The notes beneath the pieces are model-generated. The model did no database searches. It was not told the DNA's origin and saw only the letters and a list, made by a program, of their open reading frames with translations. A program made the translations under genes and the position numbers. A DNA stretch of 22,073 nucleotides. Origin: a virus. The stretch spans positions 1 to 22,073 of IMG/VR virus record IMGVR_UViG_3300026120_000012. One strand, 5' to 3'. Shown here in pieces: positions 5,470-19,618 of the stretch (position 1 is the stretch's first letter; each line of letters begins with the position of its first letter).

Positions 5470-5752
5470 TGTCAACCTCCTTAATAAGCGCCGCCAAAGC
5501 AGATATCTTGTCGTTGATATCGTTGACCTGCTCTTCAGGAGATTGAAGCAGCTTGGAGCGGGTGCGATTGAGGTTTTTGTAAATCTCCAGTATTACTTCT
5601 TCCTCATCCACGTCAGCAATCTCAAAACTCTTTTTACCGATGCAGAAGTAATCGTCGTACTCCTTCATGTCAGTAAGGTACAAGCCGTAAGAAAGCGTCC
5701 CTTTCTCAGTAAGTCGCGCTAACACATAGTACTCTTGGGTAATTGTCGCCAT
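5453..5752 (-). CDS. Hypothetical protein (99 aa), first gene after internal early promoter
   Basis: The start ATG at 5752 has GGAG 7 nt upstream. The 99-residue product begins MATITQEYYVLARLTEKGTL, has a mixed strand/helix middle (YDDYFCIGKKSFEI) and an acidic segment DVDEEEVILEI. The C-terminal half looks helical and could form a coiled coil (SPEEQVNDINDKISALAALI). No family is recognised. It is the first gene downstream of the leftward promoter at 5789-5816, so it would be expressed early and strongly, followed by the other small genes and the Rad52-like module. Confidence 0.8.
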   Translation of the reverse strand: MATITQEYYVLARLTEKGTLSYGLYLTDMKEYDDYFCIGKKSFEIADVDEEEVILEIYKNLNRTRSKLLQSPEEQVNDINDKISALAALIKEVDNVNAA

Positions 5753-12056: not shown

Positions 12057-12341
12057 ATGGCCAGACCAAAAGGATCACCGGACCTTACCCCAGCTATCCG
12101 CGGCGGCTTACTTCGAGCTCTGAAGATCATCGATGACAGCAAAAAACCGATGTCAACGCGATGGGTTGAGGCATTCGAAAAAGACTTCCTCGCCACCATG
12201 ACAGTCGCTTCCAGGTTTATCGACAAGAACGTGAATCTCGAGCACTCTGGCACCGTGACGCACAACACCAACCAAATGAGCGAAGAGCTGTTGCGCGACG
12301 TGATAAAGACCAAGCGCCTCCAGGCTGCAGCGAATGGTTGA
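12057..12341 (+). CDS. Putative terminase small subunit
   Basis: This 94-residue protein sits two genes before the large terminase. It begins MARPKGSPDLTPAIRGGLLR, with a helical segment ALKIIDDSKKPMSTRWVEAF and a C-terminal helical part. An N-terminal 'RPKGSPDLTP' followed by a helix-turn-helix-like stretch is common in phage small terminases, which recognise the packaging site and regulate the motor. It is short for a full small subunit, so it may be a minimal form. The ribosome site is weak (AGGGAA). Assignment is largely from position. Confidence 0.5.
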   Translation: MARPKGSPDLTPAIRGGLLRALKIIDDSKKPMSTRWVEAFEKDFLATMTVASRFIDKNVNLEHSGTVTHNTNQMSEELLRDVIKTKRLQAAANG

Positions 12342-16956: not shown

Positions 16957-16985
16957 TTGCTTTGTTGATCACGCAAGCATAAAAT
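16957..16985 (+). promoter_or_regulatory. Candidate promoter of the capsid gene
   Basis: TTGCTT (16957-16962) and TAAAAT (16980-16985) have a 17-bp spacer; the -10 is a 5/6 match, the -35 only 3/6. The predicted start (about 16992) falls on the first hairpin of the leader. It would boost capsid expression over the rest of the operon. Confidence 0.45.
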
Positions 16986-16991
16986 TCAGCC

Positions 16992-17099
16992 ATCAGACAA
17001 CCGGGTAGCCATTTGGTCCGAGTCTGATAAAAGGTTCCGGTTGCGGGTAGGCCTTCGAGAATGAGTTTTTATTAACGCTCAACTTGGAGGGTCCTACCC
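16992..17099 (+). promoter_or_regulatory. Structured 5' leader of the major capsid mRNA
   Basis: ATCAGAC (16992-16998) pairs with GTCTGAT (17022-17028). GGGTAGG (17045-17051) pairs with CCTACCC (17093-17099), which ends immediately before the ATG; the ribosome site GGAGG lies inside that loop. A second GGGTAG (17003-17008) in the first hairpin loop could also pair with CTACCC, giving alternative folds. The arrangement suggests translational control or mRNA protection. Confidence 0.5.
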
Positions 17100-17966
17100 A
17101 TGAGCGCAACAATTGACAATGTATATGTACAGGGGTTCGAGCGCACCGTTCGGCACCTGGCCCAGCAGGGCATCAACCGTCTTCGTCCCTACGTCCAGGA
17201 AGTTTCAGAGTCTGTAGAAGCCTACAACTTTGAGCGAGTTGCTGCGACCGCGGCCACCCAGAAGACCACTCGCAAGACTGCCACTCCCGATGACGAGACT
17301 GCTTTCAGCCGTCGTAAGGCGATTCCGGTTGAATATCACACTGGTGATGTGACCGAGAAGAAAGACGTGGTCCAGCTCCTGATCGACCCTAACAGCACCT
17401 ATGCGAAAGCACAGGGCATGGCGATGCGTCGAGCCCAGGATGACGAGATCATTTCTGCAGCTGTTGGTGCTTCGCGCGATGGTGATGGCAACTCCGTAGC
17501 CTTCCCGGCTGCACAGGCGATCGATGGATCTGCCGGCCTGATCACGTTTGACGCAGTGACTGCTGTCAGCGAGATCTTCATGAACAACGATATCGACCCT
17601 GATACGGATAAGGTCTTCGTGATCTCTCCTGAGCAGGCTCGCAAGTTGCTCCAGCTGACAGAGGCAACCAGCGGTGACTACAACGCGCTGAAGCCGCTGA
17701 CGTCCAAGGGTTATGTCGAGTCCTGGATGGGCTACACCTGGATTGTGTCTACTCGCCTGACCTCGCCTACCGGTGATGGCTCAGACGTTGACTGCTTTGC
17801 GATGACTCGCGATGCAATCGGACTCCTGATGAACCAGGACATCCAGACTGAAGTTGATAAAGATCCAAGCATCAGCTTCGCATGGCGCATCTACACCAAC
17901 TCCATCTACGGCGCGATCCGCGTTGAAGACGAGCAGCTGGTTAAACTGACATTGGCTACCAGCTAA
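17100..17966 (+). CDS. Major capsid protein
   Basis: This 288-residue protein follows scaffold and has the sequence character of a podovirus capsid family: a polar N-terminus (MSATIDNVYVQGFERTVRHL), AAYNFERVAATAATQ-like region (about 40-53), DDETAFSRRKAIPVEYHTGD (62-82), AQGMAMRRAQDDEII and a C-terminal FAWRIYTNSIYGAIRVEDEQ. It would form the icosahedral shell. The start is the ATG at 17100 with GGAGG 9 nt upstream. It has its own candidate promoter and structured leader, and a hairpin follows it, as expected of the most abundant virion protein. The family is recalled by pattern; position makes the assignment strong. Confidence 0.92.
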   Translation: MSATIDNVYVQGFERTVRHLAQQGINRLRPYVQEVSESVEAYNFERVAATAATQKTTRKTATPDDETAFSRRKAIPVEYHTGDVTEKKDVVQLLIDPNSTYAKAQGMAMRRAQDDEIISAAVGASRDGDGNSVAFPAAQAIDGSAGLITFDAVTAVSEIFMNNDIDPDTDKVFVISPEQARKLLQLTEATSGDYNALKPLTSKGYVESWMGYTWIVSTRLTSPTGDGSDVDCFAMTRDAIGLLMNQDIQTEVDKDPSISFAWRIYTNSIYGAIRVEDEQLVKLTLATS

Positions 17967-17985
17967 GTCAGGCGTAGTATAGGGC

Positions 17986-18003
17986 GGGGCCCATAAGGGC
18001 CTC
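17986..18003 (+). terminator. Weak hairpin after the capsid gene (partial terminator?)
   Basis: GGGGCCC and GGGCCTC form a 7-bp stem (one G-U) with an ATAA loop, followed only by GTTTCT. The short T run suggests partial termination or an RNA-stability role, reducing expression of downstream genes relative to capsid. Confidence 0.45.
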
Positions 18004-18029
18004 GTTTCTAACTACACAGGAAGACAGAC

Positions 18030-18311
18030 ATGCCATTAAAAACAGGGACAAACCAAACAGATCGTAAAGCGATTGCCGAGTATCTCGAGGCCGGCGAAGA
18101 GAGCGCGAAGAAAATCGCGATTGCTCTGAAGCTCCCCGAGCAAGCTGTGGCCAATTGCATTAAGGCTCTCAAGAAGCCCAAGAAAAAACCCGCCGCTAAG
18201 CGCAAGCCAAAGCAGGTAGACGCATCACAGGAAGACGCCGGCACTGAAGACAGTGGCACCGAGGGCGTCGATTTTGGCGAAGAAGAGAGCTCCTCAGAAA
18301 CGCCCAGTTAA
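18030..18311 (+). CDS. Hypothetical protein (93 aa) with basic middle and acidic tail
   Basis: The ATG at 18030 has AGGA 8 nt upstream. The N-terminal ~50 residues look like a small helix-turn-helix (DRKAIAEYLEAGEESAKKIA, LKLPEQAVANCIKALKK). A strongly basic stretch follows (KKPKKKPAAKRKPK, about 50-63), then an acidic Ser/Glu tail. In this position, just after capsid, it might be a head-associated or DNA-contacting minor protein. No family is recognised. Confidence 0.65.
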   Translation: MPLKTGTNQTDRKAIAEYLEAGEESAKKIAIALKLPEQAVANCIKALKKPKKKPAAKRKPKQVDASQEDAGTEDSGTEGVDFGEEESSSETPS

Positions 18312-19609: not shown

Positions 19610-19618
19610 TAGGTGCAG

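Follow-up and report, generated by a model that had tools for sequence, protein, structure and literature searches.

The leader of the major capsid protein gene in the window (the whole 22,073-nt stretch of viral DNA analyzed here) carries a bulged-hairpin motif in two strand orders. We favor, with moderate confidence, the reading that this leader is a cis-acting, phage-specific translational RNA switch in which the stabilized motif frees the capsid Shine-Dalgarno (SD) sequence. Comparison of related leaders shows the motif itself, its bias toward the sense strand, its tie to capsid genes, and a helix between a strand of its second form (form II) and the SD region. We infer that the alternative folds interconvert in vivo, that the formed motif corresponds to the on state, and that the factor acting on it comes from the phage or the infected cell; the formed motif is probably the bound state.

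According to this model, the leader would bear a duplicated aptamer-like bulged hairpin, once standing alone (form I) and once in permuted strand order (form II), and the 3' strand of form II would double as an anti-SD strand. Left unaided, the leader would prefer a hairpin that buries the capsid SD. If form II were stabilized, either by a bound factor or by forming first during transcription, it would use up the anti-SD strand, the SD would be exposed, and capsid translation would be turned on.

Definition and enrichment of the motif

The first-pass annotation of the window took the gene starting at 17100 to encode the capsid protein, and the profile matches agree that it is the major capsid protein (PHROG_3437, E 9e-75; PF19821, E 1.7e-53). 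The motif was first noticed in the capsid leaders of 31 viral-contig loci encoding relatives. In these leaders, a recurrent hairpin consists of GG/CC pairs, then a G·U pair, a 3-nt bulge of the form YNR, and a C-G pair. Our shorthand is GGG-YNR paired with UCC, and the variant is GGA-GYA paired with CCC. The strands occur in two orders, namely, B strand, loop, A strand (form I) and A strand, loop, B strand (form II).

A loose descriptor of the motif gave 43 matches on the plus strand and 11 on the minus strand, compared with 4 to 18 in each of ten Markov simulations of 250,650 bases; the loci behind these counts include near-duplicates, the window and L001 among them. For stricter counting, 209 capsid leaders drawn from relatives' loci, from named phages, and from 10 cases picked for matching were reduced to 136 non-redundant leaders. 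A strict descriptor matched 62 of these 136 leaders (55 of 129 without the 7 pre-selected leaders, termed "extra"), compared with 2 of 136 reverse complements and 0 of 136 capsid-ORF stretches. The summed mean for shuffled leaders was 0.65. With a relaxed descriptor, 66 of the 136 leaders matched, as did 3 of 136 reverse complements and 3 of 136 capsid ORFs; both forms occurred together in 43 leaders, and the motif was absent from 70. By group, the relaxed matches comprised 46 of 60 leaders of the first capsid profile, 10 of 54 of the second profile, 3 of 15 named phages, and 7 of 7 extra leaders.

The window leader (L001) has both forms by the relaxed descriptor. The strict descriptor misses it: its form II has a G-U pair after the bulge where C-G is usual, and its form I has only 2 inner pairs. 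These copies are degenerate, which counts against the switch reading, as does the absence of the motif from many leaders. Named phages with the strict motif include, among those printed, K300 and VP5. The Alteromonas phage ZP6 has the motif by eye and a weak match to model R1 (E 0.09), and no motif was found by eye in the leaders of the pelagiphages HTVC010P and HTVC028P. Unpaired sequence in related phages, with capsid expression unchanged, had been named as the observation that would speak against the earlier reading of the window; most close relatives do not show it, and many distant ones, pelagiphages included, lack the motif.

On a capsid tree with 134 rows, the motif label changes 16 times, compared with about 45 times when labels are shuffled. 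The motif is inherited, but it is often gained or lost. The near-invariant G·U pair and the rarity of matches in reverse complements (only 2 or 3 of 136) indicate an element that acts as RNA; a DNA-level element, considered as a candidate, was rejected on these grounds.

Predicted folds of the window leader

Table 1. Features of the capsid leader and its surroundings in the window
Feature	Coordinates	Strand	Basis or predicted energy
Hairpin 1, with outer stem ATCAGAC (16992-16998)/GTCTGAT (17022-17028); holds form I	16992..17028	+	MFE folds
Form I, CGGGTAGCCATTTGGTCCG; GGG/TCC, bulge TAG, 2-bp inner stem, ATTT loop; degenerate	17002..17020	+	
Form II, AAGGTTCCGGTTGCGGGTAGGCCTT; A strand TCC, B strand GGGTAG	17031..17055	+	-7.9 kcal/mol
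SD-burying hairpin; 5' strand GGGTAGGCCTTCGAG, 3' strand CTTGGAGGGTCCTACCC	17045..17099	+	-26.1 kcal/mol
Shine-Dalgarno GGAGG, 9 nt before ATG	17086..17090	+	Read directly; paired in MFE fold
Major capsid protein gene, 288 aa	17100..17966	+	PHROG_3437, PF19821
Hairpin directly 3' of capsid gene	17985..18004	+	Fold

The first-pass annotation had located GGGTAGG at 17045, GGGTAG at 17003, and CCTACCC at 17093 to 17099, directly before the ATG at 17100, and all three are present at these positions. It had interpreted them as two mutually exclusive stems, with either upstream strand pairing with CCTACCC and the ribosome site lying in the enclosed loop. Exclusivity holds up, with a different pair of rivals. 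GGAGG sits within a stem rather than in a loop, and the better partner for GGGTAG at 17003 is TCC at 17017 to 17019, with which it makes its own bulged hairpin, as in relatives. The actual rivals are form II and the SD-burying hairpin. Positions 17045 to 17055 are common to both, and the two folds are mutually exclusive because both need this common strand, GGGTAGGCCTT.

The SD-burying hairpin, at -26.1 kcal/mol, has a z-score of -5.0, and none of 200 shuffles equaled it; the z-score for the fold of the whole region from 16957 to 17160 is -2.49. Among 20,000 Markov-shuffled leaders, the 7 nt immediately preceding the ATG had a perfect complement upstream in 0.56% of cases. The form I site is the top R1 place in the whole window, but it is weak (13.9 bits, E 0.22). 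Forcing form II in the window raises the predicted accessibility of 17085 to 17089 from 0.12 to 0.42. The price is about 11 kcal/mol, which, by the folding model, would be a lot for a ligand to repay.

Stable 5' hairpins on a presumably abundant mRNA are also what would be expected of an mRNA stability or processing element, such as a 5' stabilizer or an RNase site. We consider such a role highly improbable, given that one bulge is kept in two strand orders and is coupled to the SD.

Covariation in related leaders

Covariation in related phages had been proposed as a check on the stems of the window, and both form I and whole leaders do covary, with 0 of 500 shuffles as high. Across 29 distinct form I sequences, 87.4% of cells are paired, compared with 74.4% when shuffled, and the covariation score is 0.398, compared with 0.182 when shuffled (0 of 500 as high). 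Covariation in relatives is seen for form I hairpins that have long outer stems. In an alignment of 23 leaders from one clade, a structure that includes form II scored 0.389 and one that includes the SD hairpin scored 0.302, both with 0 of 500 controls as high, although these structures were drawn from one of the 23 sequences, which gives them an advantage in slid controls. Hairpin 1 and a middle hairpin supply most of the support in this clade. The cores of form II and the SD hairpin hardly vary in the clade alignment and so carry little covariation. The A1 strand is conserved, though the predicted ground state leaves its outer pairs unused.

In the leaders L058 to L098, a middle hairpin with a covarying stem lies between two motif hairpins (alignment A4, columns 53-90) and is flanked by the conserved sequences CTCCGGTTG..AAGCTGAGGG.

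Coupling of the motif to the SD region

For 53 form II leaders, a set that excludes the window itself, we compared how well the B strand, extended by its 3' flank, pairs with the SD region of the same leader and with swapped partners. The mean was -14.4 kcal/mol for own SD regions and -11.1 kcal/mol for swapped partners; the swap distribution had an sd of 0.30 and a lowest value of -11.9, and 0 of 500 swaps reached the own value. In 45 of the 53 leaders, SD pairing was at -9 kcal/mol or below. The B strand beat every upstream window of its own leader in 26 of 53 (median rank, 0.019). Form II of the window likewise shares a strand with pairing to the SD region (hairpin 17045-17099). Clear exceptions are L017, L019, L023, L057, L292, VP5, and K300; all of these but L019 have form II and no strong SD pairing, with a rank of 0.39 (K300) or worse. 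In Vibrio phages the motif is retained although no strong SD competitor accompanies it. When form II was forced, predicted SD accessibility rose in 26 of the 53 leaders and fell in 5, and the mean went from 0.13 to 0.23, a gain that, on these predictions, lends modest backing to a switch across leaders. One further set of swap counts was discarded as proof, being biased by site selection.

A plain translational attenuator would make use of the same SD pairing. The SD hairpin, which is strong in the window, would fix a low or temperature-dependent rate with no ligand, and form II, which is transcribed ahead of the SD, would be a mere folding intermediate during transcription. The SD pairing common among form II leaders fits this explanation as well, but the conserved bulge, the second copy in form I, and the presence of the motif before other capsid families are left unexplained by it, and we judge it distinctly unlikely.

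Leaders of PHROG_9953 capsids use a different strand: here the SD region is paired with the A strand of form I (TCCGTAGC with GCTACGGA is one example). For 9 non-redundant leaders of 17, the own value was -14.2 and the swapped value was -12.1 with an sd of 0.9, and some swaps reached the own value. Given this use of the A strand, two capsid families appear to achieve the same exclusion of the SD via different motif strands, a comparison of sequences that for PHROG_9953 is suggestive only.

Distribution in phages and prokaryotes

An exact scan of viral contigs with CGGGTNGCTCGNAAGRGTCCG returned 21 stretches, and a scan with the variant pattern returned 7, all of them upstream of capsid genes. 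The pattern CGGGYARCYCGNAAGRGTCCG, which overlaps the CGGGTNGCTCGNAAGRGTCCG pattern, had 80 matches in viral contigs, and its reversed pattern had 0; the independent cases are fewer than 80 because many matches are near-copies. Seventy-three of the 80 matches lie upstream of capsid or scaffold-capsid genes belonging to three PHROG capsid families. These comprise 55 before PF19821/PHROG_3437-type capsids (blastp), 17 before capsids starting MAI[ST]TE[IV]LN (two of which, L316 and L197, were profile-scanned, and both match PHROG_9953), and 1 (L201) before an acidic ORF without a family match that is followed by a PHROG_334/PF13252 capsid. Another 5 matches are cut by contig ends (L186, L203, L213, L349, and L351), and 2 (L318 and L370) are set among uncharacterized genes.

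The matches in L370 (2212-2232) and L318 (reverse strand, near 12112-12132) are perfect form I hairpins with a long outer stem in a non-capsid setting. They precede a 37-aa reading frame amid genes of unknown function, and each is the sole R1 match in its record.

When R1 was run over whole records, 12 of 22 had matches at E up to 1, and the matches with E below 0.05 were capsid leaders by their coordinates. All 14 of a further set of records, which were picked for carrying the pattern, had exactly one R1 match each at E up to 0.1. No R1 match was found in 10 of the 22 records, including VP5, K300, phiVC8, and the 36-kb record G002, which encodes a capsid identical to that of the window. R1 misses degenerate copies, and genomes may hold extra ones. 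The usual count per genome is one place, at the capsid gene.

Prokaryote genomes yielded 4 matches. One of them (L217) precedes a capsid gene and is identical in that stretch to L129, and the other 3 have no leader context. The motif is nearly confined to phage contigs.

A scan for form II returned 83 stretches; among the 80 examined, 43 lie before relatives of the capsid of the window (blastp). Inspection by eye adds L142, L147, and L186 as leaders close to contig ends, and the remaining matches look mostly like chance occurrences in GC-rich coding DNA. The L186 leader (reverse strand, about 250-115) holds three motif copies (by eye, two of form I and one of form II) and lies between an upstream terminator-like hairpin and a downstream ORF cut by the contig end.

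A phage-borne small-molecule riboswitch with tandem aptamers would also present a tandem conserved motif tied to SD exposure. Because prokaryote genomes hold almost no copies of the motif except in phage DNA, and because it is tied to capsid rather than metabolic genes, we regard this explanation as very unlikely.

Transcription context and the comparison with put RNA

The first-pass annotation had also placed a predicted promoter start at the outer hairpin, which our scan does not bear out: no sigma-70-type promoter passed between 16000 and 18500 of the window. Across the non-redundant set, a promoter-like site was found upstream in 67 of 136 leaders, compared with 12 of 136 capsid ORFs, and most printed loci of relatives have a terminator-like hairpin after the capsid gene. 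Given this promoter and hairpin, the capsid gene with its own leader looks like its own transcription unit in many relatives. The hairpin at 17985 to 18004 in the window is without a clear U run, whereas the strong terminator-like hairpin found there in relatives carries a T run.

In phiVC8 (L110), the promoter predicted at 5551 to 5601 in the published account (PMC4802629) coincides with form II in the capsid leader. Just past the capsid gene of the window, a 93-aa ORF (18030-18308) has weak winged-helix matches below the cutoff (E about 0.009), and an ORF at 19613 to 20008 matches DUF1353 above the Pfam cut-off.

The putL and putR elements of phage HK022 are leader RNAs in which a pair of bulged stem-loops lies near a promoter. 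As described, put RNA follows early promoters, binds RNA polymerase, and needs no phage proteins to suppress termination (PMC9378689). The capsid leader resembles put in this architecture; unlike put, it is found ahead of capsid genes, and one of its strands also belongs to the SD hairpin. A put-like element is the main rival to a translational switch, although we consider it unlikely. In this scenario, the capsid transcript would begin with two bulged hairpins that bind RNA polymerase and suppress pausing or termination, the terminator-like hairpin past the capsid gene being a possible target, and effects on the SD would be secondary. The two hairpins soon after a promoter, as in putL, the upstream promoter-like sites, and the hairpin after the capsid gene are consistent with this explanation, and the same motif across different capsid families suggests a common partner. 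However, the element normally occurs at one place per genome, at the capsid gene and not in early operons, and SD pairing co-varies with the motif strand. The translational switch and a put-like role at RNA polymerase could be combined.

Discussion

The idea that mutually exclusive stems gate the ribosome site of the capsid gene, as originally proposed for the window, is sustained in its general form by enrichment, covariation, the difference between own and swapped SD pairing, and association with capsid genes. The first-pass annotation suggested that such an element might sense scaffold, capsid, or ribosome load. Translational riboswitches and protein-responsive leaders have two mutually exclusive folds, one of which hides the SD. 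The capsid leader, by prediction and comparison, would resemble them in its alternative folds and SD sequestration; it differs in being phage-specific, in carrying a tandem motif in permuted strand orders, and in having no Rfam match. In MS2-type RNA phages, binding of coat protein to an operator hairpin represses the replicase gene. The capsid leader likewise places a bulged hairpin near a phage ribosome site, possibly linked to a capsid protein, but its element precedes the capsid gene itself, it belongs to dsDNA phages, and the formed motif would free the SD.

The element belongs to the structured cis-regulatory leaders, and we found no earlier description of it. No Rfam 15 family matched at its gathering score, the E-value mode giving only weak snoRNA chance matches, and blastn of the leader against phages gave no match. 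No description of the leader was found in the literature searched, the coverage of which mostly leaves out subscription papers.

A broader proposal, which we put forward tentatively and hold to be doubtful as yet, is that tailed phages of different capsid families share one RNA aptamer through which capsid translation is gated. A common factor in the infected cell would read this aptamer, such that capsid output tracks the state of assembly or infection. The factor may be a protein associated with the capsid or the scaffold; it may also be the machinery of transcription or translation itself.

A phage needs a great deal of capsid protein, in amounts matched to those of scaffold and portal. To our knowledge, post-transcriptional setting of capsid amount in tailed phages has been described for few cases. 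An RNA element shared by capsid genes from three PHROG families would offer a general entry point to the question of capsid dosage, and the capsid leader element may serve as a regulated expression element.
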